DNA from: Gammaproteobacteria bacterium
GTDB lineage: Bacteria; Pseudomonadota; Gammaproteobacteria; Legionellales; Legionellaceae
Reading direction: 5' to 3'
DNA: 40,477 nt
Assembly: GCA_026399205.1 (NCBI GenBank)
Contig: JAPLRL010000007.1
Location: 1 to 40,477, forward strand
Shown: positions 8,194-40,204 of the stretch, piece after piece
Numbering within the stretch: the first letter of the stretch is position 1
How the letters are laid out: the number at the start of each line of letters is the position of its first letter
Position numbers and translations under genes: made by a program
Notes under the pieces: generated by a model
The model's database searches: none
What the model saw: only the letters and a program-made list of their open reading frames with translations
What the model was told of the DNA's origin: nothing

Positions 8194-8317
8194 GAGAGCG
8201 AACTTTGATTGTGATAAAATAAACGCACGATAAGAAACGCTAGTCGAAGATACCGGATTATCGCGAGAGGTTGTGGCGGCGATTTAAACTTCACTGTACT
8301 TTCATGCTCAACGGATG

Positions 8318-8346
8318 GAGTTTCCTCGTTACGTTCGGGATGACGT
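8318..8346. repeat. Single arm of dispersed palindromic repeat (diverged)
   Basis: 29 bases resembling the repeat arm found at 9197, 11419, 39089 and 39299, ending in the hallmark cgggatgacgt. It is more diverged than the others. It lies upstream of the preferred wzm start. If the longer TTG-initiated frame were used, the arm would be translated in a different frame from the EIPRxARDDV reading seen elsewhere. Confidence 0.7.
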
Positions 8347-8387
8347 GCTTGGTTTACCTTGTAGTGATATTAATAACAGGAATAAAA

Positions 8388-10504: not shown

Positions 10505-12051
10505 ATAAGAAATTTAAAAAACCGACAGACCTTGAGTTAGAGAAGCTCCTGCTTAAACGAGTTAGGCGCCAGCCGTTGGAGGCGGTTCAAGTTCTTGAGG
10601 ATATGCTGAATAGCAGCTCGTGGAAAATGACCAGGCCGTTGCGGGCGCTTAGAAGTAAAGTTGCTTTGTGTCAAGAGGGGATGCGGCGAGTTGCGTGCTG
10701 GTGTATAAAAATAGTTTATTATTTTAGAAGTTGGGTTCGCCGTTTTAATTCGCCGCGGGACGTAGGCATTCGAGGCGTTGATGCAAAACAGCTCCTAGTC
10801 GATATCTCTCTTTTAATCGAGCGTGATTTAAAAACAGGCATTCAGCGTGTTGTTAGGCAGTTATTGAGAGAGTTACTGAGCAATCCACCGGTTGGTTACC
10901 GTGTTGAGCCTGTTTATGCAGTGCGCAGAAAGCGGGGGTATCGTTATGCTAAACAATTTTTGGGAAGTGATGCGCCAGACCTTCCTGTACAAGTTGAAGA
11001 AGGCGATTTGTTCGTTGGATTAGATTTTACCCCGGAGCATACACTTGAACAAGAAGTGACATTGTATGATTATAAGTTGCGCGGCGTTAAGGTGTATTTT
11101 GTTGTTTATGATGTGTTGCCTTTGTTGTACCCGGAGAAGTTTTATTATCAGTTGAATCATCTTTATTTAAAATGGTTGTGGGTGATGACACAGGCGGATG
11201 GTGCGATTTGTATTTCGCAATCGGTTGCAATGGAATTAAGGCGTTGTTTAAGTGGTTATAGTCAGGCGCGGATGGAGCGTTTTAAGATTAGTCACTTTCA
11301 TTTGGGGGCGGATTTTGGTGGTACTTCAGAGTCGTCATCGCTCAGTCAATCCGTTACTCAAGCCGTCATCCCGAACGAGGTGAGGGATCTTCATGATGAG
11401 GTGCGGTGCAACAACGAGGAGATCCCTCGCTTCGCTCGGGATGACGTACGCGCTCGGGATGACGTACGCGCTCGGGATGACGTACGCGCTCGGGATGACG
11501 TACGCGCTCGGGATGACGGAAAAAAATTTTTAGCGGTCAGTACGCTCGAGCCTCGAAAAGGCTATGCTCAACTGCTTTCCGCTTTTGAAATCCTGTGGCA
11601 TCAAAATGAACCCGTTTCTCTTGTGATCGTCGGGAAAGAGGGGTGGTTAGTAGATGATCTAGCGGAGCGCCTGCGTACTCACCCTGAAAACGGCAAGCGG
11701 TTATTTTGGCTTAAATTTATAAGTGATCAGGCTCTAAAAGAGTTTTATCAAACCTCAACTTGCTTAATTGCGACTAGTGAGGCAGAGGGGTTTGGTTTGT
11801 CATTGGTTGAGGCTGCCTTTTATGACTTGCCGTTGATTGTGAGGGATATTCCTGTTTTTCGAGAAGTTGCGGGTGATCATGCCTATTATTTTGATAGCTT
11901 AGCTCCAGATGTGTTGGCGGAGACCATTCAAACTTGGTTGAGTCTGCATGATAAACAATTACATCCGCGATCTCGCCAGCTACCTTGGTTAACTTGGAAA
12001 CAAAGTGCTGAGCAATTAAAAGAAGCTTTATTGATAAAGTACATTGCCTAA
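10501..12051 (+). CDS. GT4-type glycosyltransferase carrying an in-frame repeat insertion
   Basis: 516 residues. The N-terminal segment has SSSWKMTRPLR, a short motif common in polysaccharide-cluster proteins. It is followed by a GT-B enzyme with LLVDISLLIERDLKTGIQRV near residue 100 and, in the C-terminal domain, STLEPRKGYAQLL and the EX7E motif EGFGLSLVE near 430. Between the two Rossmann domains (about residues 288-340) lies foreign sequence: a complete palindromic repeat at 11364-11447 followed by four 18-base units encoding RARDDV. The frame stays open, and the insertion falls at the hinge where extra length may be tolerated. The start overlaps the wzt stop (ATGA). The 3' end is duplicated downstream of the toxin-antitoxin genes, and the final residues (IKYIA) differ from the duplicate's IGQDSV. 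Confidence 0.85.
   Translation: MNKKFKKPTDLELEKLLLKRVRRQPLEAVQVLEDMLNSSSWKMTRPLRALRSKVALCQEGMRRVACWCIKIVYYFRSWVRRFNSPRDVGIRGVDAKQLLVDISLLIERDLKTGIQRVVRQLLRELLSNPPVGYRVEPVYAVRRKRGYRYAKQFLGSDAPDLPVQVEEGDLFVGLDFTPEHTLEQEVTLYDYKLRGVKVYFVVYDVLPLLYPEKFYYQLNHLYLKWLWVMTQADGAICISQSVAMELRRCLSGYSQARMERFKISHFHLGADFGGTSESSSLSQSVTQAVIPNEVRDLHDEVRCNNEEIPRFARDDVRARDDVRARDDVRARDDVRARDDGKKFLAVSTLEPRKGYAQLLSAFEILWHQNEPVSLVIVGKEGWLVDDLAERLRTHPENGKRLFWLKFISDQALKEFYQTSTCLIATSEAEGFGLSLVEAAFYDLPLIVRDIPVFREVAGDHAYYFDSLAPDVLAETIQTWLSLHDKQLHPRSRQLPWLTWKQSAEQLKEALLIKYIA
11364..11447. repeat. Complete palindromic repeat inside a glycosyltransferase gene
   Basis: The left arm (about 11364-11391, gtcatcccgaacgagg...) and right arm (11419-11447, ending ctcgggatgacgt) are imperfect inverted copies around a spacer of about 27 bases. 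The whole element is read through in frame, giving VIPNEVRDL from the left arm and EIPRFARDDV from the right arm. The same element family appears at 12782, 39027 and 40343 in non-coding DNA. Confidence 0.85.
11448..11519. repeat. 18-bp tandem array, four units, in frame
   Basis: Four consecutive copies of acgcgctcgggatgacgt (the last ends gg) follow the right arm of the palindrome. Each encodes six residues (RARDDV), so expansion or contraction keeps the glycosyltransferase frame. The unit copies the last part of the palindrome arm, so it looks like local amplification of the repeat end. Confidence 0.92.
11969..12035. repeat. 67-bp direct repeat, left copy (3' end of glycosyltransferase)
   Basis: This copy is coding and gives LPWLTWKQSAEQLKEALL at the end of the GT4 protein. 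The right copy at 12897-12963 differs at 6 of 67 positions by my hand alignment. The MntA/HepT genes lie between them. Confidence 0.85.
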
Positions 12052-12103
12052 CTGCTCATTGGCAGCTAAAATTAAATTAACAATTTCGAGCGGGTGTCAA
12101 TCA

Positions 12104-12394
12104 ATGTTACTTCAAGAGCTCCATGCAAAAAAAAAAGAAATTCTTTCGTTAGCAACTGAATATGGTGCCCGTAGAATACGAATTTTTGGTTCGGTTGCAA
12201 GAGGCGAGGAACACTCTGACAGTGATATTGATTTTCTCGTGGATTTCCCTCAAGGCTATGACCTCTTTACTCAACGTATGCCACTATGTGAACAATTGAT
12301 GAAACTAACTGGTAGAAAAGTAGATCTTGTCCCAGAGCATGAGTTAAATCGCCATCTTCGCGACGCAGTTTTGAAGGAAGCAAAGAGTCTATGA
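12104..12394 (+). CDS. mntA: MntA-like nucleotidyltransferase antitoxin
   Basis: 96 residues from the ATG at 12104. The core is a minimal nucleotidyltransferase with IFGSVARGEEHSDSDIDFLVDF, which carries the GSxxRG...SDxD pattern with both metal-binding aspartates. In MntA/HepT modules this protein neutralises the HEPN toxin by adding AMP to a tyrosine near the toxin's active site. The frame is open to an ATG at 12044, but those 20 residues overlap the glycosyltransferase stop and do not resemble the family, so I prefer the later start. The next ATG overlaps this stop (ATGA), giving the usual antitoxin-first order. It is unrelated to sugar metabolism and looks like an inserted module. Confidence 0.88.
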   Translation: MLLQELHAKKKEILSLATEYGARRIRIFGSVARGEEHSDSDIDFLVDFPQGYDLFTQRMPLCEQLMKLTGRKVDLVPEHELNRHLRDAVLKEAKSL

Positions 12395-12720
12395 AAAAAA
12401 ATTGGCATCTATATGCTCACCATATCATCGATTGTATAAACAAGATTAAATTGATTAAAGCCCGTGGTGACATCACAACGGATGATATGCTGTATGATGC
12501 CACACTAAGAAATTTGCAAACGCTTTCAGAGGCCACTCGACACTTGCCAGAGGAAAAGCTCAGACAATATCCTACCGTGCCCTGGAAAAACATTAGTGGA
12601 TTCAGAAACATATTGGTTCATGACTATCTCGGCGACATTGATTCACATACCGTACTGAAAATTATTGATCAGCATTTAGCTGCCTTAGAGGCCGCTGTTA
12701 TAGGTATGCTACAAACGTAA
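12391..12720 (+). CDS. hepT: HepT-like HEPN ribonuclease toxin
   Basis: 109 residues, all-helical, of the DUF86/HEPN family. The catalytic motif RX4HXY is intact as RNILVHDY near residue 71, and the preceding VPWKNISGFRN segment is typical. Such toxins cleave RNA (for example tRNA ends) and are kept silent by MntA. It overlaps mntA by four bases. The pair sits within a polysaccharide cluster between two copies of a 67-base glycosyltransferase fragment, which suggests it arrived by insertion or by a duplication event. Confidence 0.9.
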   Translation: MKKNWHLYAHHIIDCINKIKLIKARGDITTDDMLYDATLRNLQTLSEATRHLPEEKLRQYPTVPWKNISGFRNILVHDYLGDIDSHTVLKIIDQHLAALEAAVIGMLQT

Positions 12721-19580: not shown

Positions 19581-20402
19581 ATGAACGTTGAACAGCAAAA
19601 TAAATTGAAAGAAAAGGCTAGATGGGTTTGGCGTGAAACATTAAAAATTCACAGACGGGCCCCAGAGACACGATTGGCGTCCTCTTTATCGGTGATTGAA
19701 ATTTTTGTTGCCTTGTATTATGGTCAAATATTGGCATTTTCTCCTCAAGAACCGTGGGTAGAATGGCGTGATCGTTGTATTATTAGTAAAGGCCATGGCT
19801 CGATTTGTATGTATCCTATCTTGGCAGATTTAGGTTTTTTTGCCATGGAGGAATTACAGCGAGTGTGTCAGACCGGCGGCTTTTTAGGTGGGATTCCAGA
19901 TCCCGTTATTCCGGGGTATGAAACAGTGAATGGTTCATTAGGGCATGGTTTGGGTGTTGGCACAGGCATGGCCCTTGGACTAAAAAATAAAAAAAGTGAT
20001 AGACAAGTGTTTGTGGTGACAGGGGATGGTGAGTTGCATGAAGGTGCGAATTGGGAAGCCATTATGTTTGCGTCGCATCAACGCTTAGACAATTTAAATT
20101 TAATTATTGATAACAATAAAATCAGCATGCTTGATCATACGGACAACATTGTTTCGCATCATTCTTTGAATGAACGATTGTCGGCCTTTGGCTGGGTCTG
20201 CACTGAAGTGGATGGGCATAACGTAATGGCTGTGCATACTGCCTTGACTCAAATGAAAGGTCAATTGAGTGGTCAGCCTAAGGCATTGATTGCGCATACT
20301 AGAAAGGGCGCAGGAGTCGCTTCTATTGAAAATGCGCCTTTATGTCACATTATGAATCCCAAACCCGAGGAGTTAGATGCCTTGTTAGAGAGTGGGATAT
20401 GA
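19581..20402 (+). CDS. Transketolase, N-terminal (ThDP-binding) subunit
   Basis: 273 residues covering only the pyrimidine-diphosphate half of transketolase: ISKGHGSICMYPILADLGFF, GSLGHGLGVGTGMALG, the ThDP/Mg motif GDGELHEGANWEA near residues 153-165, and LIIDNN. The partner half is encoded by the next gene, overlapping by four bases (ATGA), so the two form a split enzyme. In this setting it may supply sedoheptulose 7-phosphate for GmhA. Alternatively, it may transfer a two-carbon unit to a nucleotide-linked keto sugar to make a branched sugar. Its place between a sugar kinase and a ColD-like enzyme favours a dedicated biosynthetic role over central metabolism. Confidence 0.9.
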   Translation: MNVEQQNKLKEKARWVWRETLKIHRRAPETRLASSLSVIEIFVALYYGQILAFSPQEPWVEWRDRCIISKGHGSICMYPILADLGFFAMEELQRVCQTGGFLGGIPDPVIPGYETVNGSLGHGLGVGTGMALGLKNKKSDRQVFVVTGDGELHEGANWEAIMFASHQRLDNLNLIIDNNKISMLDHTDNIVSHHSLNERLSAFGWVCTEVDGHNVMAVHTALTQMKGQLSGQPKALIAHTRKGAGVASIENAPLCHIMNPKPEELDALLESGI

Positions 20403-21394
20403 GTGTCCGTCCTATTGCTATGCGTGATGCTTTTCTTGAGCGGATTTTTCAAGAGATGGCGCATGATGAGCGTATTTTCTTTTTGAGTGCGGATTTTGGA
20501 TCACCTGTATTAGATAAAATTAGATCGCAGTTTCCTACCCGTTTTGTCAATGTAGGTATTGCCGAGCAAAATCTAATCAATGTTGCTGCTGGGTTGGCGA
20601 TAGAGGGGTTTAAAGTATTCGCTTATGCCATTGCACCTTTTATCACGATGCGTTGTTACGAGCAGATTCGCGTGAGCTTAGCTTTGCTGTCTGAAGTAAG
20701 ACCCATGAACGTGACGTTGATTGGTGTCGGCGCTGGATACAGTTATGTCGTCTCAGGCCCAACACATCAATGTTATGAAGATTTAACGTTGATGCGCGCG
20801 ATGCCCAATATGGCGGTATACTCGCCCGCGGACCACGTCACCACCGCAGCGTTTTTTGATGTTTGTTTGGCAGAGCATGGGCCAAAATATTTGCGGCTTG
20901 ATGCACAGGTTTTACCGGTGATTTATGAACAAGATCCGCCGATGATAAAACGCGGTTTTCACGTCCATCGAGACGGCGAATCGCTTTGTTTGGTTGCGAC
21001 CGGATACATGTTGCATACCGCGTTTAAAATAGCTGAGCGACTTGAATGTCAAGGTATAGCCGTTGGTGTCATAGATTTATTTAGTCTCTCTCATTTTTCA
21101 GCAGAATTATTAGAATCCACCCTGAGTCGCTATCAGAAAATAGTGACGTTAGAAGAAGGGTTTAAAGGTCGAGGTGGGATGGACGCCCTGTTGTTTGATT
21201 TTATTGCGCGTCACCAGATCAAGTTGTCGATGCTAAATCTAGGTGTAGAAGGAACTTATCGGTTTGAACTAGGCAGTCGCTTCGAATTGCATGAACAAGT
21301 TGGCATTGGTGTTGAGGTAGCGTTAGCGCGTATTGTTCAGTTTAATCAGGCGGGTAGAGTCGTTATTGACGGATTAGTCAAGGAGTTGTCATGA
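20399..21394 (+). CDS. Transketolase, C-terminal subunit
   Basis: 331 residues covering the pyrimidine-binding and C-terminal domains. FVNVGIAEQNLINVAAGLAIEG contains the catalytic glutamate that activates ThDP. GVGAGYSYVVSGPTHQ and LEEGFKGRGGMDALL are typical of the family. I start it at the ATG overlapping the stop of the N-terminal subunit. An earlier in-frame ATG at 20342 would overlap the upstream gene by 60 bases and adds residues unlike the family. The next start overlaps this stop (ATGA), so the split transketolase and the PLP enzyme are likely made together. Confidence 0.9.
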   Translation: MSVRPIAMRDAFLERIFQEMAHDERIFFLSADFGSPVLDKIRSQFPTRFVNVGIAEQNLINVAAGLAIEGFKVFAYAIAPFITMRCYEQIRVSLALLSEVRPMNVTLIGVGAGYSYVVSGPTHQCYEDLTLMRAMPNMAVYSPADHVTTAAFFDVCLAEHGPKYLRLDAQVLPVIYEQDPPMIKRGFHVHRDGESLCLVATGYMLHTAFKIAERLECQGIAVGVIDLFSLSHFSAELLESTLSRYQKIVTLEEGFKGRGGMDALLFDFIARHQIKLSMLNLGVEGTYRFELGSRFELHEQVGIGVEVALARIVQFNQAGRVVIDGLVKELS

Positions 21395-22578
21395 AGTATC
21401 CATTAATGAGAAACAATATCTTAAGAGAAGATTTAGATCTCTTAATTGATTATTTAAAGCAAGATGATCCTATTTTAACGCATGGTGCAAATGTACGCGC
21501 TTTTGAAGAAGAGTGGTCTCAGTGGTTGGGTGTAAAATATAGTGTGTTTGTTAATTCGGGTGCATCAGCTAATTTATTGACTATGGCGATATTAAAAATT
21601 AAGCACCCTGAGGGTGGCGAAGTGATAACGCCGCCACTAGGCTGGGTTTCTGATGTTGCTTCCGTACTCCAAAATGGGTTTACACCGATATTTGCAGATA
21701 TTAATCCACAGACCTTAGCGATGGATTCTGAACAAATTTTATCTAAAATTACGGATAAAACGCGAGCTGTATTTTTAACTCATGTTCAGGGCTTTAATGG
21801 ATTAACCGATCATTTAATCGCTGAGTTGAAGCGTCGCAATATTCCACTGATTGAAGATGTTTGCGAATCACATGGCGCAACCCATCATGGGAGAAAATTG
21901 GGTGGATTTGGCTGGATTTCTAACTTTTCATATTACTATGCTCATCATATGAGTACGATTGAAGGCGGCATGATTTGCACGGACGATCCTGTTGTTTATC
22001 AACAGGCTAGAATGTTGCGTTCTCATGGCATGGTCAGAGAGGCAAATGATGCACAAACCAAGCAGCTCTATCAATCAGAAAATCCTGCGTTGAACCCTGA
22101 CTTTATTTTCGCATATCCTGCTTATAATGTGCGTAATAGCGAACTTGGTGGCATTTTAGGACGTAACCAACTAAAACGACTTGATGAGAACGTCAACCGT
22201 AGGACAGACAATTTAATGCGATTTTTAAATCAGATTAATCCAAATTATTATCGGACCGATTTTAAAGTAGAGGGTTCAAGTAATTATGCGTTTAATTTGA
22301 TCATGAAACATGCAGATGAAGACTTTGTTCAGTGTTTAATGAATCATATGAGGCAGTCTGGAATTGAGTTTCGTCGAGGGAGTGCTGGCGGAGGTAATCA
22401 AATTCGTCAACCTTACTTAAAGGGACTGGTTCCGGCAAATCATCATTTAGATTTTCCTGAAACAGAGCATGTGCATTTTTATGGATTTTATATTGGTAAT
22501 TTTCCAGACTTAGCCTTTCATGAAGTTGATGAGGTGTGTGATATTCTCAATTCAGTACCTGTTTTGGCTGAGGTCTAA
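21391..22578 (+). CDS. ColD-like PLP-dependent sugar 3-dehydratase (DegT/DnrJ fold)
   Basis: 395 residues of the DegT/DnrJ/EryC1/StrS family. NSGASANLL and IEDVCESHGA bind PLP, but the family lysine that forms the Schiff base is replaced by His 185 in YYYAHHMSTIEGG. The same Lys-to-His change defines ColD, which uses free PMP to remove the C3 hydroxyl of GDP-4-keto-6-deoxymannose. I therefore call it a 3-dehydratase rather than an aminotransferase. The substrate could be the Gmd product, giving a 3,6-dideoxy sugar, or the heptose equivalent. It is coupled by ATGA to the split transketolase, which might act on the 4-ketone of its product. Confidence 0.85.
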   Translation: MKYPLMRNNILREDLDLLIDYLKQDDPILTHGANVRAFEEEWSQWLGVKYSVFVNSGASANLLTMAILKIKHPEGGEVITPPLGWVSDVASVLQNGFTPIFADINPQTLAMDSEQILSKITDKTRAVFLTHVQGFNGLTDHLIAELKRRNIPLIEDVCESHGATHHGRKLGGFGWISNFSYYYAHHMSTIEGGMICTDDPVVYQQARMLRSHGMVREANDAQTKQLYQSENPALNPDFIFAYPAYNVRNSELGGILGRNQLKRLDENVNRRTDNLMRFLNQINPNYYRTDFKVEGSSNYAFNLIMKHADEDFVQCLMNHMRQSGIEFRRGSAGGGNQIRQPYLKGLVPANHHLDFPETEHVHFYGFYIGNFPDLAFHEVDEVCDILNSVPVLAEV

Positions 22579-24901: not shown

Positions 24902-26110
24902 ATGAAAACATATGACTTTATAATTATAGGCGCCGGCATAGTTGGAATGACCGTGGCCTATGAATTACGTCAACGTTATCCTAAAGCCTCTATCGCAATA
25001 TTAGATAAAGAAGCTAAAGTCGGCGTTCACGCAAGCGGTCGTAATAGCGGCGTGTTGCACAGCGGTATTTATTATACAAACGATACCTTAAAAGCCAAAG
25101 TTTGTGCCACTGGTGCTGCGAAAATGATGGCTTTTGCGCAAACCCATCAAATTCCCTATGCCAAGTCAGGTAAAATTATTTTAGCGACGTCTGAACATCA
25201 ACTCCCCGTTCTTGATCGGTTGATGAAAAATGCGCGTGAAAATGGGATTAATGCAATAAAAATCAGTGGAGATGAGGCGTTAAAAATTGAGCCACATGCA
25301 GCACTGGGGCCTGCGGCTATATACTGCCCTGATACGGCTGTCATTGATAGTCTCGCTGCTTTAACAAAGCTGCAAGCCTTACTTGAGAAACAAGGGGTTT
25401 GTTTTCATTTTCAGTGTCAGATGACAGGGCTAAAGCAATTCAATCAACTAGAAACACGGCAGGGTCTATTTTCTTTTGGGTTTCTTTTTAATTGCGCAGG
25501 AGCATATGCAGATACCCTGGCTCGTTATTTTGGGCTGGCTCAGGATTATATGCTCATTCCTTTTAAGGGAATATATTGGAAGTTAAGCTCAGAGGCAAAC
25601 TCACTGATTCATTCAAATATTTATCCTGTTCCTGATGTTTCCTTGCCTTTTTTGGGTGTTCATCTCACAAGAGTGATCAATGGGGATGTTTACGTGGGTC
25701 CGACGGCTATCCCGGTTTTTGGAAGGGAAAATTATCATCACGTTAAGGGATTGAAACTGAAGGAAGCGTTCGGTATAGGGGCTACATTGGCGCGTTTGTA
25801 CATGGAAAACCAGAATAACTTTAGACTACTTGCGCATACAGAATTATTAAAATATCGAAAATCAGTTTTCTTGTCTTCAGCACAACAACTGTTACCTTCG
25901 TTGCGTGCGATAGATTTGATTCCTACCCCTAAAAGTGGTATTCGGCCTCAGTTGATGAATATTAAAACTAAGAAATTAGAAATGGATTATATTTTTCAAA
26001 AAACAGATTGTTCTGTGCATGTTTTAAATGCGATTTCGCCTGCGTTTACCAGTTCGTTTGAATTTGCTCGGATAATTGTAGATCAAAGTGAAGCATGTTT
26101 TAAAAAATAG
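24902..26110 (+). CDS. FAD-dependent oxidoreductase, LhgO-like
   Basis: 402 residues. FAD site IIGAGIVGMTVAYEL at the N-terminus, the family marker SGRNSGVLHSGIYY near residue 46, FNCAGAYAD in the middle, and a C-terminal substrate domain. It resembles L-2-hydroxyglutarate oxidase and related hydroxy-acid oxidases. In a nucleotide-sugar operon it may instead oxidise a sugar or branched-sugar hydroxyl, a guess based only on context. It starts 11 bases after the previous stop. Its 3' end overlaps the 3' end of the convergent minus-strand gene by 28 bases. Confidence 0.78.
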   Translation: MKTYDFIIIGAGIVGMTVAYELRQRYPKASIAILDKEAKVGVHASGRNSGVLHSGIYYTNDTLKAKVCATGAAKMMAFAQTHQIPYAKSGKIILATSEHQLPVLDRLMKNARENGINAIKISGDEALKIEPHAALGPAAIYCPDTAVIDSLAALTKLQALLEKQGVCFHFQCQMTGLKQFNQLETRQGLFSFGFLFNCAGAYADTLARYFGLAQDYMLIPFKGIYWKLSSEANSLIHSNIYPVPDVSLPFLGVHLTRVINGDVYVGPTAIPVFGRENYHHVKGLKLKEAFGIGATLARLYMENQNNFRLLAHTELLKYRKSVFLSSAQQLLPSLRAIDLIPTPKSGIRPQLMNIKTKKLEMDYIFQKTDCSVHVLNAISPAFTSSFEFARIIVDQSEACFKK

Positions 26111-27270
26111 TCTGCAAAGCCATAAGTTAACCAGCTGGTTACGTTATAATCAACCATTTCCAAGATAATGATATCGCTTTTTTCAATATCTTTTAATATG
26201 CTTTGTTGCACAGGGTTCTCTTTGTTGTTTTTTATTTGTAGACTGGGTATGACTGTGCGTGTTTTAAAATAACTAGATACAACTAACTTTTCTGGCATTT
26301 TTATTTGATTTAAGATGAATTGGATTTGATCGGAAAAACTATCTCCAATGAGGACTATTTTGGGATGCCAGGGAGAGTGTTTATCAATCGAAATCAGATG
26401 TGAGGGGTAGGGGGTGGGTCTTAATAATTTAGCGCTGGACCAGATATTTAATAATGAATATCCATCTACGTCGACATCATATCCTGGGGGCAGTCGTGGT
26501 TCGGAGTGACCGCAATCAAGTTTTGACATGTTTGAAAATTGCTGTGATGAATTTTCTATGATGTGTTGTGCAATAATACACGCAGCGTAGTAGTTCCAGT
26601 GTAGCCCTGATATTGGATGTGTTTCGATGTGAGATGTTCGAGTAAGATGCCGTAATAGAGGGCCAGCGTCTATGACATTGACGCCCGTGGCTTTTAAGAT
26701 ACGACCAAAATTGGCGGTTCTTTTAAAAACATGGTGAGCACCATGAACTAAATAACGTTTACCTAATTCCTTAGGATAAATATAAGCTTTGCTACTAGCT
26801 AAAACTACGATAAAAAATTTATTTTTTGAAGCAAGGTCATGCTGAATTTTTAGTAATTTGTTAGCTTCCAATGTGTACCGATTTTCAAGTGTTTCTTTTT
26901 GAATCATTTCTTGATTTAAGCTATCAATGGACAGGTTGCTATAAAGGCCATGATGCGGTGTGGTGGTTAGTTTTAACCTGGTATTATTCACTTCATGAAA
27001 GAGTCTAAAATTAAGTTCATTATAGGAGCGAATAAAATAGGCTCGAAACCCGAGGTGTGTATTAAAAAATTTCTCTATCCATTGTTGTAGACTTTTATCA
27101 AAAAAAGCAGAGCGGTAATGAATGGGCTTATTGGGGACGGGATCAGTATAGCCATATAATGTTTTTTCCCGAATAAGATGGGTTCGCCATTGAATCAATG
27201 GGGCAAGCAGGAATAACACGATGAGTATGGAATAGATGACACCTAAGTTTCGGCGAAGCAGGTTTATCAT
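26083..27270 (-). CDS. AlgJ/AlgX-like SGNH partner, C-terminally short
   Basis: 395 residues, paralogous to the first 390 or so residues of the protein at 948-2660. It has an N-terminal membrane anchor, LYGYTDPVPNKP, LYSNLSID, SGLHWNYYA as the His region and LIGDSFSDQI as the Ser region, ending EMVDYNVTSWLTYGFADYF. It lacks the extra C-terminal domain of its paralogue. The stop lies inside the convergent oxidoreductase gene, so the end probably was reset by a rearrangement. The MBOAT gene abuts upstream. It should complete O-acylation with that MBOAT. Confidence 0.82.
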   Translation of the reverse strand: MINLLRRNLGVIYSILIVLFLLAPLIQWRTHLIREKTLYGYTDPVPNKPIHYRSAFFDKSLQQWIEKFFNTHLGFRAYFIRSYNELNFRLFHEVNNTRLKLTTTPHHGLYSNLSIDSLNQEMIQKETLENRYTLEANKLLKIQHDLASKNKFFIVVLASSKAYIYPKELGKRYLVHGAHHVFKRTANFGRILKATGVNVIDAGPLLRHLTRTSHIETHPISGLHWNYYAACIIAQHIIENSSQQFSNMSKLDCGHSEPRLPPGYDVDVDGYSLLNIWSSAKLLRPTPYPSHLISIDKHSPWHPKIVLIGDSFSDQIQFILNQIKMPEKLVVSSYFKTRTVIPSLQIKNNKENPVQQSILKDIEKSDIIILEMVDYNVTSWLTYGFADYFLKHASL

Positions 27271-28743
27271 TTAGAACCTAAAATAAAGAAAGGGGACATA
27301 ATCCGAGCTGACTATAGCAGCGGCAGATAATGAGAGAAGAGAGAGAGTCAATATAAACTGATAGTTGAGTGCTTTGATGCCGCTGATTTCCATGTTTTCA
27401 GTCCATGCCGCTTGAATCTGAATGTTATTCATGATTTTGGGGAGGGGGATGGTAACGAACGCAAGGAGGGAGCCAAGCATCATTGTTGTAATGGCTTGGT
27501 TCGTAAAAATGCTGCCCCAGGGTAAGACCGGATGATCTGCATGAGCGAAACCACACAAGATGCTTATATAGTGAAGCGCCTCATGGAGCGTTGCGGCACG
27601 AAAAAAGACCCAGCCTATCATGATAATAAAAAGGGTGATGATTTGTTTCATGATGTGAGGTAAATAAAGTTTTTTCCCCCACCGACTGGTGTTAAACACC
27701 CGCTCCAGGCATAGAAAAAATCCATAATACCCCCCCCAAATAACAAAATTCCAGCTTGCACCATGCCAAAATCCTGAAATTAAAAATACAACCCAGAGGT
27801 TAAGATAGGTTTTGGGGATAGACACTCGGTTTCCACCCAGTGGGATATAGAGATAAAGCCGCATCCAATTAGAGAGTGAGATGTGCCAGCGACGCCAAAA
27901 GTCTGTGATACTACGAGCGGTATATGGGCGATTAAAATTTTCCGGGAAACGAAACCCAATCATGCGCCCCAAGCCAATAGCCATGTCAGAATAACCTGAA
28001 AAATCGAAGTAAATCTGTAGGGTATAGGCCAAAATACCCCCCCAGGCGAATAGAAAAGACAATTCATGGGTTGGAAGAGAGAAAACTTGATCAGCAATCA
28101 ATCCCAGTGGATCTGCAATGAATAGCTTCTTTAATAACCCAATGGAAAAGCGAGTGAAGCCAACAATAAAGCCATCAGCCGTATGCTTGCGATTTTGCAG
28201 TTGCATGCCAATGTCGTGATAGCGAATAATGGGGCCTGCGATGAGCTGTGGAAAAAGAAAGATATAAAGTGCGCAGTCAAAAAAATGTCGAGGTGGAGTG
28301 GCTCGACCTTTATAACTGTCAACGAGATAACTTATTTTATGAAAAGTAATAAAAGAAATCCCTAAAATAAGTGGGAAATTCGGTTGAGTCATTGTTAAGT
28401 TAAAATAAGTATGTAAGGGGCCGAAGCATTGGGCGTAGATAAAATTGAGATATTTTGAACCAATGAGGATGCAGGTATTGAGTACAATAGCGATGGATAA
28501 TAGTATTAATTTGATGTGTTGTTTAACAGAAGAATGGGGCTCGATGAATTTAGAGATGTGGTAATCAATATAGGTGGTTAAAACTAAGATAAATACAAAG
28601 ATAGGTTCGCCCCAAGCAAAAAATAAGATACTTCCCAAAAGTGCAACAGTATTTTTTGAGGAAGTATGGTTGGGCGCTAGATAATAAGCGGATAAAAACA
28701 CGGGTAGAAAAAAAAATATAAAAAAAGGTGATGTAAATAGCAT
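27271..28743 (-). CDS. MBOAT family O-acyltransferase, operon B copy
   Basis: 490 residues, the same length as the paralogue at 2661-4133 and alike throughout, including FRRWHISLSNWM-type and YIPLGGNRVSIP motifs and the catalytic GFWHGASWNF with His near 327. It is polytopic and resides in the inner membrane. Its stop abuts the ATG of the SGNH partner. A 28-base gap separates it from the 760-residue membrane protein upstream. Two MBOAT/SGNH pairs suggest either two acylation sites or redundancy. Confidence 0.92.
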   Translation of the reverse strand: MLFTSPFFIFFFLPVFLSAYYLAPNHTSSKNTVALLGSILFFAWGEPIFVFILVLTTYIDYHISKFIEPHSSVKQHIKLILLSIAIVLNTCILIGSKYLNFIYAQCFGPLHTYFNLTMTQPNFPLILGISFITFHKISYLVDSYKGRATPPRHFFDCALYIFLFPQLIAGPIIRYHDIGMQLQNRKHTADGFIVGFTRFSIGLLKKLFIADPLGLIADQVFSLPTHELSFLFAWGGILAYTLQIYFDFSGYSDMAIGLGRMIGFRFPENFNRPYTARSITDFWRRWHISLSNWMRLYLYIPLGGNRVSIPKTYLNLWVVFLISGFWHGASWNFVIWGGYYGFFLCLERVFNTSRWGKKLYLPHIMKQIITLFIIMIGWVFFRAATLHEALHYISILCGFAHADHPVLPWGSIFTNQAITTMMLGSLLAFVTIPLPKIMNNIQIQAAWTENMEISGIKALNYQFILTLSLLSLSAAAIVSSDYVPFLYFRF

Positions 28744-28771: not shown

Positions 28772-31054
28772 TCATAGTTGATTGATGTCCTTTTGACAAA
28801 TCGTTGTCATGTTTGTAATAGAAAACTTAACTTCTCTGGGATCTCCTTTAGACAGTCTTTCAGGTTTTCCATCTGCTATCAGCTGTAATATATAATGATC
28901 TGATCGGGTCATGATCCATGGTGTTTCAAAGTGTTGCTCGCCAGCAATCGTGGGTAGCACATATTGCGCCATCAGTTTCCCTGAGCGATGCTTTAGGTTG
29001 ACCGTTATTTTTCTTGGGTAGGGGAAAGCAGTGATCTTAAAGGCAAATTTAATTTTTTTGGGTGTGCCTACACTAGAGTAGTAATAACTAATGGTGTTTG
29101 AAACCCAGGTCCGTCTTGGTTCTTCATTGTTTTTTACAGTAACGTAATCCCCCATTGTTTTTTGTAAATTAATAAAATTATAAGGGGCTGATTGTATTAA
29201 AAATGGTTTTAAGTGCATATTGAGATGACCACAAGCATTGCTTCGATAATCCATAGTGATTAACTTTTTGGCTTTATCTAGTGGCATGTGTTTATCTTTG
29301 ATCGGTAGCAACCTTATAATATATCCATCATCACGATAGTCACTGGATAGTTTTTTATCATATAGAATATAGGCCAGCATTTGTCGGAGTTTTTGGTGTT
29401 CCGATGTCAATGTGATGTGAATGATGTCCGAGTTTGGGGGCAGAGCTAACGCGTTACGTAATTGTAGTAATTGAGTAAAGGGGTTTTTCTGTTGTTCAGT
29501 ATCTTCAATAAATTGACGATTGAGCGTGCGCGAAACGAAAACGCATTGAAAAATGAGGCCAAGCAACATTGCACTGAGGTAAGTTATCAGTAAAAAAGAT
29601 CTTAATTTTTTATAATCTTTCCAGAGTACACTGATGCCGATGCCGACGAGTGCTAATGAAAACGGGGTGGCATAGTTGGAAATTTTATATTGCAAAAACG
29701 TATGGCCTACTTCGGTAGAATTGATACTGGGTATAAAATATCTTAATTTTATAAACACTAGTAATAAAATAAACTGAATACAAAAGATAAGTCGTAATAC
29801 TAAGTTTCTTTTTTGTTCGGAAAGAATGAAACGAAGAAGAATACAGCATAAGATAATCAATGCAACTGGAAATAGATAGCAACTCACAACGCTATCAAAT
29901 CGATAGGGCATATTCACAAAATCGCACTTCATTCCAAAAGTGTGTGCTAAATACTGGATGGGTGACCACGGCACAGTCCACCCGATTTTTACATGCGCAT
30001 TAGATATGAAGAGGGTGAGGAGAAAGCTTTTTATGATTCGAATGCCTTCATAATTAATTAAAATCAAGGTTTCGATGCTATAGAGTGCTAAAAAAAGAGA
30101 AAGTTGTTTTATTGCGTTTCTATTGGCTAATCCGGTAATGATAAAAAATATTCCTAAGGCTGCCGCAAACAGTGGGCATGGTTCGTTATAAGCAAATAAC
30201 AATGCTGCAGAGCAGATGGAGAGGGGGAGACAATAGATTGCCGTTTTTTGAAGCGAACATCGATGGTTAATCATCGATCGTGTCACTAAGGGAACAAGGG
30301 CGCACAGGCCAGTGGCTAATGCAAGACCCCAGGTTTGCGCGTAAAAACCCCATTGCGCACTATACAGATATCCGTTGAGTGAAAAAGCGGGTAAAGCCGC
30401 CAAAGACAAAATGACTGTTTTTGGTGCCGCAGTGACTTGCCGGATGATTCCCCCGATGGACAGACAGCCTGTGACAAAACCAAGAGCTATCGTTGGGATA
30501 TAGGCATAATAGGACCATTTCAATGAAAAAAGAGATTGTACAAATCCCAATAAAAAGCTCGCTCCCATGCGTAAGCCATGCACTTGATAAAGCATAATCT
30601 GAGTAAGATAAGGATGAAATCCTGAGGCAATTGCCTTTTCAGAAAAAGCATGTTCTTGTAGCCATTGTCCGTGTGCCAAATAAGTAAAGATATCAGTATA
30701 AGGACTGTATCCATGATAGAGGATAATGGGAGCAAGGATGGGGAGTGCACAAACAATCGAGAATAGGCAAATTTGAGCCCACGCCTGAAATGCGTGTACT
30801 CGGTTTTTTTCATACCAAATTGAAAGAAACATGATCGAAACGATGATCATCAGCGTGTAATGAAACTTGAATGGGGAAAACCATCCATATCCAGTCGAAA
30901 TTAAAATAAGAGCAGCTGCACCAAGGATGGGGGAGACATAAAATCCGATTGATTCACAGATGGCCTGGGGTAATAAATCAACAATTCGGCGGCCAATAAG
31001 GGTACAGATGAGTAACAGTAACCATAAATAAATCATGGTTGTTAAGTAATTCAA
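28772..31054 (-). CDS. Large polytopic membrane protein, GT-C-like, with C-terminal accessory domain
   Basis: 760 residues. Residues 1-500 hold about a dozen membrane helices, with an acidic loop YSPYTDIFTYLAHGQWL (Asp 121) between early helices, the layout of GT-C transferases that use polyprenyl-linked sugar donors. Residues about 640-755 form a soluble, probably periplasmic, tail that resembles the accessory domain of operon A: TWVSNTISYYY, PRKITVNL and DGKPERLSKGDPR match HWWQWVN..V.Y.F, PQTLTI and DGQPRKLSGTDPR. There is no operon A counterpart to this gene. Its start overlaps the GT2 stop (ATGA). A GT-C transferase is the best guess; a polymerase or other transporter is possible. Confidence 0.65.
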   Translation of the reverse strand: MNYLTTMIYLWLLLLICTLIGRRIVDLLPQAICESIGFYVSPILGAAALILISTGYGWFSPFKFHYTLMIIVSIMFLSIWYEKNRVHAFQAWAQICLFSIVCALPILAPIILYHGYSPYTDIFTYLAHGQWLQEHAFSEKAIASGFHPYLTQIMLYQVHGLRMGASFLLGFVQSLFSLKWSYYAYIPTIALGFVTGCLSIGGIIRQVTAAPKTVILSLAALPAFSLNGYLYSAQWGFYAQTWGLALATGLCALVPLVTRSMINHRCSLQKTAIYCLPLSICSAALLFAYNEPCPLFAAALGIFFIITGLANRNAIKQLSLFLALYSIETLILINYEGIRIIKSFLLTLFISNAHVKIGWTVPWSPIQYLAHTFGMKCDFVNMPYRFDSVVSCYLFPVALIILCCILLRFILSEQKRNLVLRLIFCIQFILLLVFIKLRYFIPSINSTEVGHTFLQYKISNYATPFSLALVGIGISVLWKDYKKLRSFLLITYLSAMLLGLIFQCVFVSRTLNRQFIEDTEQQKNPFTQLLQLRNALALPPNSDIIHITLTSEHQKLRQMLAYILYDKKLSSDYRDDGYIIRLLPIKDKHMPLDKAKKLITMDYRSNACGHLNMHLKPFLIQSAPYNFINLQKTMGDYVTVKNNEEPRRTWVSNTISYYYSSVGTPKKIKFAFKITAFPYPRKITVNLKHRSGKLMAQYVLPTIAGEQHFETPWIMTRSDHYILQLIADGKPERLSKGDPREVKFSITNMTTICQKDINQL

Positions 31055-35340: not shown

Positions 35341-35763
35341 CTACTTTCCAAAAACACTCCCGCCCGCGTCCTGCATAGCAGTACTTAACTTGCCATCAAA
35401 CGTAGCCAACACAGCATGATGTCGTAAAGCGAGATCGAGGTAGACGGCATCATATGCGCTTAGTTTATGTTGCCGCGCTAGAGACATCACACCATCTCGC
35501 CGTGTGCTTATTAACTCATTGTCGGTCACAATGGGTAAATCTGACAAAGTACTCAGATAGTTTAGCACTTGCGCTTCCGTGACGATGGATCGCCGTTCGC
35601 CGACTAATAACGCATTGCTGATTTCAATATGCCACAACGCCGGAACCAAGGTGTCCATATTTGCCAATTCTTGCAGTGCGCGGTTGGCACATTCAATTTC
35701 ATCTGTTTTTTGGCGCTCAAATATCCATGCTAAAGCCATGGATGCATCTAATACTAATTTCAT
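35341..35763 (-). CDS. vapC: VapC-like PIN-domain ribonuclease toxin
   Basis: 140 residues, PIN domain. The acidic residues of the metal site are visible: D6 in LVLDAS, E47 in HIEISNAL, the Asp in SAYDAVYLDLAL and the late Asp in LATFDGKL. VapC toxins cut RNA, often tRNA or rRNA, and are held inactive by the antitoxin encoded just upstream, whose stop overlaps this start (ATGA). It is a stability or stress module and has no evident link to the glycan genes. Confidence 0.9.
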   Translation of the reverse strand: MKLVLDASMALAWIFERQKTDEIECANRALQELANMDTLVPALWHIEISNALLVGERRSIVTEAQVLNYLSTLSDLPIVTDNELISTRRDGVMSLARQHKLSAYDAVYLDLALRHHAVLATFDGKLSTAMQDAGGSVFGK

Positions 35764-36002
35764 CGACGCCCCTCTGTGATCAGTTCAGATACGGTTGCTG
35801 GCGACACGCCCTTAATTTTATGTATCTGGCGCATGGCTTCAATAGCGGTGTGGGCGTTTTTTACTGTTGCCTGTTCACTGGGAATGAGATCGGCAACTGG
35901 GCGACCACGTAGTGTGATTGTATAACAACGCCCCAGCTGTACTTCATGTAGCAACTTAGAGAGCTGTGCTTTGGCATTGAATGATCCAATTTCTATATAC
36001 AT
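35760..36002 (-). CDS. vapB: VapB antitoxin, Phd/YefM type
   Basis: 80 residues. The N-terminal half is a Phd/YefM DNA-binding fold (IGSFNAKAQLSKLLHEVQLG, then ITLRGRPVADLIP). The C-terminal half would wrap the toxin. GGAGGGG precedes the ATG. It overlaps vapC by four bases. A promoter and an inverted repeat directly upstream fit autoregulation by the VapBC complex. Confidence 0.9.
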   Translation of the reverse strand: MYIEIGSFNAKAQLSKLLHEVQLGRCYTITLRGRPVADLIPSEQATVKNAHTAIEAMRQIHKIKGVSPATVSELITEGRR

Positions 36003-36165: not shown

Positions 36166-36984
36166 ATGAAAAAAATACATAAGTGGTTAACATCGAAAAA
36201 ACGACTTAAAGCTGCGAGTATCAAACCTTATCCCAAAGTCCATCATATTATTTCAGACATCATCACTGAAGGTCGAAGAAAGAACAACTTTTATGTTGTC
36301 TTTGATGCGGATTTGACCATCGCCACGCAATATATCAAGCAGTATGCAAAACAACATCGGACCCCTGTTCCCTTAATGACATATATTATTCAAACCTTTG
36401 CTAGAGCGGTGAATGAACATAAAGACATGCAAACGTACCGGCGGGGGCGTTCGAAATTGATGGTGTTTAATGAAGTGGATGTTGCGGTGACGGTGGAGCG
36501 GGAAGTTGAGGGGCATTTGATGCCTATTTTGCATATTGTCCGTAATGCTAATCAAGCGCCGCTTTCTCGAATTTCTGAGGAGATACAGTACAAAAAAACC
36601 GCACCTTTACACGCTAGACCCCGGCCGTTTTCTAGAACTATTCGTCATTTTAGTAAAATCCCTTATGGCTTACGTCGAATGGTTTGGGCGGTTATTCGGC
36701 GGACTCCTTATTTGATTAAACGCTATATGGGAACAGTTGCAGTGAGCTCAACCAGCAGTTTTTGTTCGGGAAGCATGGTTTTTATTTCTCCAAGCCCGAT
36801 TACCCTCTTGTCGATTGGTGGCGGGCGGATGCAAACGGTGATGGTTGATGATGTCGCGACTGAACGTTATATCGTGCAGATGGGGTTAACGGTTGATCAT
36901 GACGTGGTTGATGGAGCGCCGGTGTCTCGGTTTTTAGAGCGTTTTAAACAGTTGTTGCAACAGCCGGATGTGACTTGTGGATAA
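36166..36984 (+). CDS. E2-like (2-oxoacid dehydrogenase catalytic domain) acyltransferase
   Basis: 272 residues resembling the catalytic core of dihydrolipoyl acyltransferases (the chloramphenicol acetyltransferase fold). FYVVFDADLT, LMTYIIQTFARAVNEH, VDVAVTVEREVEGHLMPIL, SSTSSFCSGSMVF and the active-site TVDHDVVDGAPVSRFL near residue 245 are all recognisable. It lacks lipoyl and peripheral-subunit-binding domains, so it is not part of a standard dehydrogenase complex. It overlaps an FkbH-like gene by eight bases and an acyl carrier protein follows. That set recalls tetronate-type pathways, where a free E2-like enzyme handles acyl transfer beside glyceryl-ACP formation. I infer transfer of an acyl group to a sugar or to the ACP-bound unit. 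Confidence 0.8.
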   Translation: MKKIHKWLTSKKRLKAASIKPYPKVHHIISDIITEGRRKNNFYVVFDADLTIATQYIKQYAKQHRTPVPLMTYIIQTFARAVNEHKDMQTYRRGRSKLMVFNEVDVAVTVEREVEGHLMPILHIVRNANQAPLSRISEEIQYKKTAPLHARPRPFSRTIRHFSKIPYGLRRMVWAVIRRTPYLIKRYMGTVAVSSTSSFCSGSMVFISPSPITLLSIGGGRMQTVMVDDVATERYIVQMGLTVDHDVVDGAPVSRFLERFKQLLQQPDVTCG

Positions 36985-38725
36985 TGTAGATCTTCCTCAT
37001 GTGCGCGCCAAAAAAATATGGCGGGGATTTAATGCCGATGGGGTTGCTGATTTTAAAATTGGGATCAGTGCTTCATTTACCGTGGGTCATCTGGTCGATA
37101 TGCTGGGTTGTGCTTTACTGGATATGGATATTAAACCGGCGCTTTATCTCGGAGCCTATAATCAACTTATTCAGACTTGTTTGAATCATCAGGGGATGTT
37201 TGAGAATCAAGACTTAGATGTCATTGTGATGCTTTGGCGGATTGAAGATGTGATGCCGTTGGTGTTTGAGCGGTTTGTGATGGGGTGCGATGAAGGTTTA
37301 GACGCAATGAAGGCGCATATTGATGAATTAGTCAGCGCACTATTGCATCTACGCCAACAGTTCTCCGGACAAATCGTGATATCGATTCCGCCTTTTCCGC
37401 AAGGATCTATGGTTGAGTTGAGTGATCTGGATACGCCGCTTAATGCAGGTCGGTTTCATCGCGAAGTCATTCGCTACTTTTTAGATCGTACCTCTGATAT
37501 ACACCCATTGCATCTGCTTGATTTAGACGCATTGCAACGTGGGTTTGGAATGCAAGCCGCGTTTGATACGCGTAAATGGTATCTCTATAAACAGCCTTAT
37601 TCTGAGCCATTTTTGTGGACGGTGGGGCATGTGTTGGCGCGTATGATTCGTGCAAATACTGTTGCGCCTAAAAAATGTATTGTGCTTGATTGCGATAATA
37701 CCCTTTGGGGTGGCATTGTTGGAGAAGATGGTATTGAAGGTATTCAGCTGGGTCCCGAGGGGTTTCCGGGCTCTGCTTTTTACGACCTGCAAAAATACAT
37801 GGTGTATTTACATAGCAAGGGTATTTTATTAGCGCTGGCCAGTAAGAATAATGAAAATGATGTTTGGGCGGTGTTTGATAGTCATGATGGGATGGTGTTG
37901 AAACGCGAACACATTGCGGCTTGGCGTATTGATTGGCATGCTAAGTCTGCGAATATTCAAGCGATGGCTGATGAGTTAAATATTGGCGTTGATAGCATGG
38001 TGTTTATTGATGACAATCCTTTTGAAATTGAGCAGGTTCAAGTGGCATTACCTGGGGTGACTTTGATTCAGCTCGATAGTGAACCAGCGAATATGATTAA
38101 ACGGATTAAAGAAAAACACCTGTTTGATAGATTGAGCGTGACTGAGGAAGATCGCAACCGAACAGGGATGATTCATGCGGAACGTAGTCGCAAGCATCTC
38201 ATCAGTACAGTCAATTATTCGATGTTAAATCTAGAGGCAGACATCAAGCTTGCATCTTTAAGCCAACTAGAGCGGGTCACTCAGCTGATTAATAAAACCA
38301 ATCAGTTTAATCTCACCACGGTGCGTCGTACGCTAGATGAAGTGCGTCAGCTACACGATAGCCCTGATTGGGATATTTATACCATGCGGGTTTCCGATAA
38401 ATTTGGGGATTATGGCTTGGTGGGGGTCGCATTGATTGAGAAATTGCCGGATGCTTGGTATATTGACTCGTTTTTAATGAGTTGCCGGGCATTAGGGCGA
38501 CACGCAGAATCCGCCTTGCTTGCAAAGCTTGCTGGTTTTGCAAAACATCATGGAGTCGAGGTTGTGAAGGCGTCTTTTATTCCTACGAACAAAAATACGG
38601 TCGCGGCTGAGTTTTTGGTGTCTCATGGGTTTATTCAACACTCAGAACATGGTTTTGAAGCCGCTGTGAGTCAAATTCCCCCAGCACCGCCTGGTTTTAC
38701 AATTTATACCTCTCAAGGACAGTAA
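36977..38725 (+). CDS. FkbH-like protein (HAD superfamily, glyceryl-ACP forming type)
   Basis: 582 residues. An N-terminal SGNH-like part (FKIGISASFTVGHLVDML) is followed by the HAD domain with CIVLDCDNTLWGG near residue 235, ALASKNNENDV and FIDDNPFEIEQV. A C-terminal GNAT-like part has DKFGDYGLVGVALIE. FkbH enzymes take the glyceryl group from 1,3-bisphosphoglycerate, dephosphorylate it and load it onto an ACP; some relatives load other three-carbon units. The ACP gene overlaps the stop by one base. The start is a GTG overlapping the E2-like gene, with no ATG suitable before the FKIGISA segment. In a glycan cluster it could supply a glyceryl or similar acyl decoration. Confidence 0.9.
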   Translation: MDNVDLPHVRAKKIWRGFNADGVADFKIGISASFTVGHLVDMLGCALLDMDIKPALYLGAYNQLIQTCLNHQGMFENQDLDVIVMLWRIEDVMPLVFERFVMGCDEGLDAMKAHIDELVSALLHLRQQFSGQIVISIPPFPQGSMVELSDLDTPLNAGRFHREVIRYFLDRTSDIHPLHLLDLDALQRGFGMQAAFDTRKWYLYKQPYSEPFLWTVGHVLARMIRANTVAPKKCIVLDCDNTLWGGIVGEDGIEGIQLGPEGFPGSAFYDLQKYMVYLHSKGILLALASKNNENDVWAVFDSHDGMVLKREHIAAWRIDWHAKSANIQAMADELNIGVDSMVFIDDNPFEIEQVQVALPGVTLIQLDSEPANMIKRIKEKHLFDRLSVTEEDRNRTGMIHAERSRKHLISTVNYSMLNLEADIKLASLSQLERVTQLINKTNQFNLTTVRRTLDEVRQLHDSPDWDIYTMRVSDKFGDYGLVGVALIEKLPDAWYIDSFLMSCRALGRHAESALLAKLAGFAKHHGVEVVKASFIPTNKNTVAAEFLVSHGFIQHSEHGFEAAVSQIPPAPPGFTIYTSQGQ

Positions 38726-38958
38726 TGGATCACCTCACCACCCTTTTTTCTGAAGTGCTCGGTATAGAGGCTTCACAATTAAATGATGATACGTCGCCAG
38801 ATAATTTGTTTAACTGGGATAGCATGGCCGCTATGTCGCTAGTGATTGCGATTGAAGAGGCGTTTTCGGTGGAGCTGAGTACGTCGGAAATTGTAAATAT
38901 GCGATCGATTGGGTTTGCGCGCGCGGTGTTGCGGAAGAAGGGGGTTGAGGGGATTTGA
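38725..38958 (+). CDS. Acyl carrier protein
   Basis: 77 residues, all-helical ACP fold. The phosphopantetheine attachment serine is in NWDSMAAMSLV near residue 33, at the start of helix 2. Its ATG overlaps the FkbH stop by one base, so the two are a dedicated pair. It would carry the glyceryl or other acyl unit made by FkbH to the E2-like enzyme. About 70 bases after its stop a large palindromic repeat begins. Confidence 0.88.
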   Translation: MDHLTTLFSEVLGIEASQLNDDTSPDNLFNWDSMAAMSLVIAIEEAFSVELSTSEIVNMRSIGFARAVLRKKGVEGI

Positions 38959-39214: not shown

Positions 39215-40204
39215 ATGAAAAACCTTAAAAAAACCATTTTAATCACTGGTGCCACAGGATTTATAGGTAAACACTTAGCGCAGGCATTATTGACCACGGA
39301 GATCCCTCGCTTCGCTCGGGATGACGTGGGCGTTACATTACATCTTTCATCACGCTCAAAAATAGATTTCCCCCACCACCCCAACGCATCCATTTTTTCC
39401 CCCATCAACCTAGACCCAGAAGCCAACTGGTCACCAGCACTAGCCAACTGCGATGTCGTGATCCACACCGCCGCGCGCGTCCATGTGCTCAACGAAGCAG
39501 CAGACAATCCCTTGTATGAATTTAGACGCGTAAATGTTGACGGAACTTTAGCCTTAGCGCGCCAGGCGGTGGAACACGGGGTGAAACGCTTTATTTACTT
39601 AAGCTCAATTGGGGTAAATGGGGCGCGTACAGTGGGGGATGCACGCTTTTCTGCTGAGGATGTTCCGAGTCCTGAAAACGACTATGCGATGTCTAAATGG
39701 GAGGCGGAGCAAGGGTTACAACAGCTGGCGGCAGAAACCGGTATGGAAGTTGTGATCATTCGCCCGCCCTTGGTATATGGCCCTGATGCCAAAGGTAATT
39801 TTCAGCGCTTGATCTCATGGGTTAACCGAGGCCTGCCTTTACCTTTGGGCGCGATACATAATCGACGTAGTTTTGTGTCTATTGATAATTTGCTGAGTTT
39901 GTTAATGGTCTGTGTAGAAAGTCCACATGCAGCGAATCAGGTTTTTTTGGTGAGTGATGGGGATGATGTTTCTACAACGGAACTGTTAAGAAGGGTGGGG
40001 CTGGCTTTGAAAAAACCGGTGCGGTTATTGCCGATTTATCCTGCTATTTTAAAAATGGCCGCGACCGTGTTGGGTAAACAAGCGGATGTAGGGCGGTTAT
40101 GTGATTCGTTAGAGATTGATATTAGCAAGACTTCCTCGGTGTTGGGTTGGAAACCGCCTTTCAACATGCGTGATACTTTGGTTCGTATGGTTGACTGTAG
40201 TTAA
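39215..40204 (+). CDS. NAD-dependent sugar epimerase/dehydratase with repeat insertion
   Basis: 329 residues, extended SDR. ITGATGFIGKHLAQALL binds NAD, followed by VIHTAARVHVL, LSSIGVNG and Tyr/Lys in YAMSKWEAE. RPPLVYGPDAKGNF is typical of the UDP-sugar 4-epimerase-like proteins often encoded next to O-antigen initiating transferases. Between helix 1 and strand 2 (residues about 28-38) the protein carries EIPRFARDDV, the translation of a repeat arm at 39299-39327, not expected in the family. The frame is kept. It may make the sugar for the initiating enzyme, which could lie beyond the window. Confidence 0.88.
   Translation: MKNLKKTILITGATGFIGKHLAQALLTTEIPRFARDDVGVTLHLSSRSKIDFPHHPNASIFSPINLDPEANWSPALANCDVVIHTAARVHVLNEAADNPLYEFRRVNVDGTLALARQAVEHGVKRFIYLSSIGVNGARTVGDARFSAEDVPSPENDYAMSKWEAEQGLQQLAAETGMEVVIIRPPLVYGPDAKGNFQRLISWVNRGLPLPLGAIHNRRSFVSIDNLLSLLMVCVESPHAANQVFLVSDGDDVSTTELLRRVGLALKKPVRLLPIYPAILKMAATVLGKQADVGRLCDSLEIDISKTSSVLGWKPPFNMRDTLVRMVDCS
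39299..39327. repeat. Repeat arm inside the epimerase gene
   Basis: 29 bases ending ctcgggatgacgt, identical by eye to the arm at 11419-11447 in the glycosyltransferase. It is read in the same frame (EIPRFARDDV). It is a single arm without its partner. Confidence 0.88.

Follow-up and report, generated by a model that had tools for sequence, protein, structure and literature searches.

What would an E2-type acyltransferase, an FkbH-like enzyme and an acyl carrier protein (ACP), a combination shared with tetronate pathways, be doing in a bacterial surface-glycan cluster? The question is raised by contig JAPLRL010000007.1 (assembly GCA_026399205.1) of a gammaproteobacterium of the family Legionellaceae, where the three genes overlap at 36166-38958. 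The window, by which we mean the whole stretch of DNA analyzed here, is this entire contig of 40,477 bases and belongs to a genome of 2.3 Mb that is 99.98% complete and whose assembly contains no 16S gene. An earlier note, made from the letters alone, had proposed that the trio places an acyl unit on a sugar by a route separate from the MBOAT acyltransferase pairs of the cluster. Our verdict is that the trio is probably an FkbH/ACP acyl-loading module, one of several with interchangeable acyltransferases. That glyceryl-ACP would be made for a glycan rather than for a tetronate is well supported; as for the transfer of the glyceryl unit, the gene overlap favors the E2, a survey of other FkbH loci favors an MBOAT, and another enzyme is a third candidate. 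The combination of E2, FkbH and ACP in a glycan cluster is new within the material searched, while its parts were already known.

Composition of the gene trio

A check of the open reading frames (ORFs) places all three genes on the plus strand. The lone E2-type acyltransferase (2-oxoacid dehydrogenase acyltransferase or chloramphenicol acetyltransferase (CAT) fold; 272 aa, ATG start) occupies 36166-36984 and matches PF00198 with E=3e-18, the FkbH-like HAD-IIIC enzyme (582 aa, GTG start) occupies 36977-38725, and the stand-alone ACP (77 aa, ATG start) occupies 38725-38958 and matches PF00550 with E=1e-8. The overlaps of 8 nt between E2 and FkbH and of 1 nt between FkbH and ACP give the layout expected of translationally coupled genes. 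Judged by profile scores, all three family matches lie clearly far beyond chance: FkbH reaches 304 bits with TIGR01686, about twice the curated cut-off of 146.65. It keeps the HAD and other motifs (D238xD240xT242, S289, K323, D345-D346 and S502-C503-R504), and every invariant residue of catalytic type across 46 aligned homologues, among them the HAD motifs and the cysteine of SCR, is retained. The genome contains no second FkbH. The ACP preserves the phosphopantetheine serine, Ser33, in the sequence NWDSM. Coordinates, families and residues all bear out the three overlapping genes of the earlier note.

The E2 consists of the PF00198 domain alone, with the oxyanion serine S195 and with H245 and D249 preserved in DHDVVDG, a motif of the HxxxDG type. 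Its AlphaFold2 model (pLDDT 87) aligns with E2 catalytic cores at Z ~25 and with CAT at Z 17. The protein does not look like a subunit of a 2-oxoacid dehydrogenase complex—it has no lipoyl or E3-binding domain and falls outside the clade of genuine E2s.

Predicted glyceryl-ACP and its probable destination

The reading that we favor, at somewhat less than an even chance, is that the trio forms a glycerate-activation and transfer module for a surface glycan, with the E2 as the most likely transferase. The chemistry of the family and the retained residues suggest that the FkbH-like enzyme would dephosphorylate 1,3-bisphosphoglycerate and charge its dedicated partner ACP with the glyceryl unit. 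From the ACP, the unit would pass in the cytoplasm to a sugar precursor, at one of its hydroxyl or amino groups. The coupled CAT-fold enzyme is the most likely agent of this step, and would stand in for the transferases of other FkbH-ACP loci (MBOAT, hexapeptide, NAT or WcbI-type). The exported O-chain is predicted to carry the unit as a glyceroyl ester or amide.

Tetronate glycerate-utilization operons (agglomerin agg, RK-682 and tetromadurin mad7/8/16/17/18) likewise combine an FkbH-like enzyme and a stand-alone ACP with a lone E2-like acyltransferase. The window differs from them in having neither a FabH-like condensing enzyme beside these genes nor an Agg5-type dehydratase, in placing the E2 before FkbH, and in its glycan setting; the E2-bearing tetronate-like loci of Methylosinus and Pseudalkalibacillus show the order KASIII, FkbH, ACP, E2. 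The contig carries no ketosynthase, as the earlier note had stated, and the genome no FabH-type condensing enzyme: its single PF08545 match is a type III polyketide synthase (PKS)-like protein. With no condensing enzyme at hand, transfer to a sugar would be the simplest end for the acyl unit. The earlier note had named a polyketide or tetronate gene set just outside the window as a finding that would speak against it; the genome shows no tetronate set, and its only type I PKS (KS-AT-MT-ER-KR-ACP) is encoded on a different contig, next to genes for an aminotransferase and an SDR, and nothing links it to the trio.

The phylogenies agree with this comparison. In the FkbH tree, the window protein groups with the FkbHs of two other genomes, G884 and G612, with support of 100/99 and apart from the tetronate FkbHs. 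Its nearest relative (46% identity, G884) is paired with an ACP among genes for RmlB/RmlD-type enzymes, a WecG-type glycosyltransferase, a sulfotransferase, a MaoC-SDR protein and a hexapeptide transferase, a plain polysaccharide cluster. The second-nearest (43% identity, G612) adjoins a methyltransferase gene. In the E2 tree, the window protein falls outside the group (96/92) formed by tetronate E2s, genuine E2s and the g392 E2s, a placement that weighs less against a tetronate origin than the FkbH tree, as only two tetronate E2s were usable. A Streptomyces E2 had been read in the wrong frame, and its position is disregarded. The E2s of genus g392, from genomes of 6-9 Mb, had looked promising and were rejected: FkbH is missing from their neighborhood, and they branch separately. 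A tetronate reading of the trio is disfavored by the missing FabH-type enzyme and by the phylogeny of both FkbH and E2.

Glyceroyl substituents of bacterial sugars are documented, as amides on Qui4N and pseudaminic acid (PMC9912281). In Campylobacter jejuni, the locus of the flagellar glycan, which makes di-O-methylglyceroyl pseudaminic acid, includes an fkbH-domain gene, cj1302 (PMC7099621, PMC3068675), and no dimethylglyceroyl sugar is present in strain 12664, where cj1302 has become a pseudogene (PMC7099621). The locus shares with the window an FkbH protein in a glycan setting, and the organism carries a sugar substituent of the glyceroyl type; it differs in the glycan and in having no named E2, and the role of cj1302 comes from natural variants and not from a mutant (PMC7099621, PMC3068675). 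The chemistry of glyceroyl groups on bacterial sugars is known, but their genes are poorly defined; in Tannerella forsythia, whose glycan bears an N-glyceroyl group, the candidate gene 'remains elusive' (PMC6120980). The trio would serve as a genetic signature if FkbH-ACP modules supply such groups. The favored reading, if true, would give the decoration of a surface antigen a direct tie to an intermediate of glycolysis, and would add carrier-protein donors to the range of the E2/CAT fold.

Candidates for the transferring enzyme

The part of the earlier proposal that sends glyceryl-ACP to a glycan is supported by the missing FabH, by the FkbH clade and by the known glyceroyl sugars; the part that makes the E2 the glyceryl transferase fares less well, and several observations weigh against it. 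When 84,980 genomes were scanned with a profile, 52 relatives of the E2 (26-34% identity) came up, none with an FkbH or ACP gene within 10 kb or the stretch examined; the scan used two short peptide patterns modelled on haloarchaeal relatives, and other E2-FkbH-ACP trios may escape it. Since these relatives occur without FkbH or ACP, the subfamily appears to have no need of an ACP, and ACP-dependent glyceryl transfer by the window E2 is a guess. No other searched genome has an E2 beside an FkbH-ACP pair without KASIII, which makes the trio so far unique. MBOATs are frequent partners of FkbH, and the window holds two. For tetronate pathways, the proposal is that the E2-like enzyme acetylates a primary hydroxyl of the product (PMC7489565). 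The C. jejuni correlation, finally, reflects natural variation in two strains, one of which lacks cj1301 and not fkbH.

Many of the relatives come from haloarchaea, the rest from Asgard and Thermoplasmata archaea, Chloroflexota, Actinomycetota and others. Those of haloarchaea, Chloroflexota and Asgard archaea belong to the same subfamily, with the identity extending over most of the length and with DHDxxDG, and differ from the window E2 in standing apart from FkbH and ACP. They neighbor UDPGT-type glycosyltransferases, beta-lactamase-fold proteins and class-III aminotransferases, surroundings that would fit small-molecule acylation. This widespread stand-alone subfamily is annotated merely as '2-oxo acid dehydrogenase subunit E2'. 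The E2 is confined to the window among 143 genomes of the same order, and 369 genomes of the class contain only two others, neither with FkbH; a single-sequence scan of genome contigs returned no close relatives, and none was found in phage records. Because its relatives stand alone, the E2 of the trio seems to be an originally independent acyltransferase that joined an FkbH-ACP pair.

Our survey covered 60 FkbH loci of the class and the phylum. In 33 of them an ACP gene was detected within 700 bp of FkbH, and an MBOAT gene within 3.5 kb in 15, representing nine families. The earlier note had suggested looking for the trio in other genomes, and none of these loci has an E2 near FkbH. Even at a 5% background per stretch the probability of 15 MBOAT loci in 60 is 2e-7, which makes chance an unlikely source of the count, although related genomes are not independent; control loci without FkbH, which were not matched by taxonomy, had no MBOAT. 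Among 148 FkbH neighbors a Pfam census counted SDR (11), MBOAT (11), MaoC (10), AAC(3)-type NAT (4), hexapeptide (4), KASIII (3) and GNAT (3) proteins. On pSymB of the laboratory organism Sinorhizobium meliloti (locus L217, 5685-10719) the row reads MBOAT, unknown gene, ACP, FkbH; in Niveispirillum, FkbH, ACP, a WcbI-type transferase and an SDR follow one another in a glycan setting, and in Aquisphaera FkbH stands among exopolysaccharide genes.

Loci with FkbH, ACP and MBOAT suggest an O-acylation system fed by a carrier protein. The Dlt system, with DltA, the carrier DltC and the MBOAT DltB, acylates a surface polymer with a small acid activated on a carrier protein, and the trio is proposed to do likewise; Dlt employs D-alanine and an adenylating enzyme, whereas the trio would draw glycerate from 1,3-bisphosphoglycerate through a HAD enzyme, with a putative link to an MBOAT. 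In the literature covered, which leaves out most subscription journals, we found nothing on an FkbH-ACP-MBOAT O-acylation system, and papers sought on FkbH with O-antigen, polysaccharide or MBOAT yielded nothing about surface glycans. The window belongs to what we propose to call FkbH-ACP glycan acylation loci, which combine adjacent FkbH and ACP genes, an acyltransferase and glycan genes with no ketosynthase; the loci with MBOAT, hexapeptide, NAT or WcbI-type enzymes, that of S. meliloti included, likewise have FkbH, ACP and an acyltransferase with no ketosynthase, but the acyltransferase is of a different fold. A broader reading, possible but rather doubtful, is that FkbH and ACP form a general, unrecognized Dlt-like route by which glyceryl groups from glycolysis reach surface glycans, with interchangeable acyltransferases, and that the window holds the first E2-fold enzyme to use glyceryl-ACP.

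The most serious alternative, which we nonetheless consider unlikely, is that acyl-ACP made by FkbH and ACP (glyceryl-ACP or a derivative) is passed to an MBOAT-SGNH pair for DltB-like acylation of the glycan in the periplasm, leaving the E2 with another task such as acetylation dependent on coenzyme A (CoA). The window has two MBOAT genes, both on the minus strand, at 27271-28743 (PF03062, 6.5e-34; 37% identity to the FkbH-linked MBOAT at locus L186) and at 2661-4133 (PF03062, 1.4e-35; 66% identity to the first). The genome has no other MBOAT, and these two share ~30-38% identity with the majority of the FkbH-linked MBOATs; both points, with the neighbors seen in the survey and on pSymB, recommend this alternative. 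With FkbH often accompanied by an MBOAT and the only MBOATs of the genome in the window, the separation from the MBOAT pairs that the earlier note assumed is doubtful. Against an MBOAT route, the two genes lie about 8 kb and 32 kb from the trio on the opposite strand, beyond the 3.5 kb taken to define an FkbH-ACP-MBOAT locus, while it is the E2 that overlaps FkbH. Each also has an AlgX-like SGNH partner of its own, at 26083-27270 (minus strand; PF16822, 2.8e-07; GDSF motif) and at 948-2660 (minus strand; PF16822, 1.9e-05, slightly short of the family cut-off; GDSY motif), the two partners being homologous. The pairs at 26083-28743 and 948-4133 look like a duplicated O-acylation set, in the usual arrangement for CoA-dependent O-acetylation (PMC12148441), whereas the partner genes of FkbH-linked MBOATs elsewhere show neither an SGNH motif nor a Pfam match, for which reason we rejected the idea that they encode SGNH proteins.

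Less probable still is that some other enzyme transfers the glyceryl unit from ACP, and that the E2 places an acetyl group from acetyl-CoA on a hydroxyl, either of that unit or of the sugar, in the manner proposed for Agg4/Mad17. The tetronate proposal itself (PMC7489565), the archaeal relatives without a nearby ACP and the structural kinship with CAT are consistent with it, and CoA-dependent acylation by the window E2 is possible; the operon, however, offers no other dedicated acyltransferase, and the window E2 stands outside the two-member clade of tetronate E2s and has HD after the catalytic histidine where they have HR. That the trio serves a small-molecule pathway, for a tetronate or another secondary metabolite, with its remaining genes on another contig is quite improbable, for although the Methylosinus and Pseudalkalibacillus clusters contain the same components and the genome has type I PKS and type III PKS-like genes, the missing FabH-type enzyme, the positions of FkbH and E2 in the trees, the E2-first order and the flanking glycan genes all oppose it.

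The surrounding glycan cluster

Apart from the trio, the contig is a surface-glycan cluster. It encodes a Wzm/Wzt-type ABC exporter of glycan in two genes (8271-10504, plus strand; PF01061, and PF00005 with PF14524 Wzt_C), many glycosyltransferases of families 2 and 4, a GDP-mannose dehydratase, a GDP-fucose synthase, HddA-, HddC- and GmhA-like enzymes for GDP-heptose, and an RfbH-like DegT enzyme. Downstream of the trio, an epimerase/SDR gene (39215-40204, plus strand; PF01370, 9.8e-31) is followed by the end of the contig 273 bases later; as the window is the whole contig, DNA downstream of 40,477 is not readable.

Between the trio and the glycosyltransferases lies a toxin-antitoxin-type pair of PIN and Phd/YefM proteins (35341-36002, minus strand), and a second such pair within the cluster joins a nucleotidyltransferase to a HepT-like protein (12044-12720, plus strand). 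A 760-aa ORF (28772-31054, minus strand) between glycosyltransferase and MBOAT genes has no Pfam or NCBIfam match. The run of sugar-nucleotide genes closes with an FAD protein resembling L-2-hydroxyglutarate oxidase (24902-26110, plus strand; 341 bits, above the NCBIfam cut-off). At 19581-22578, a transketolase split over two genes precedes the RfbH-like DegT enzyme, an arrangement that possibly points to an unusual branched or deoxy sugar.
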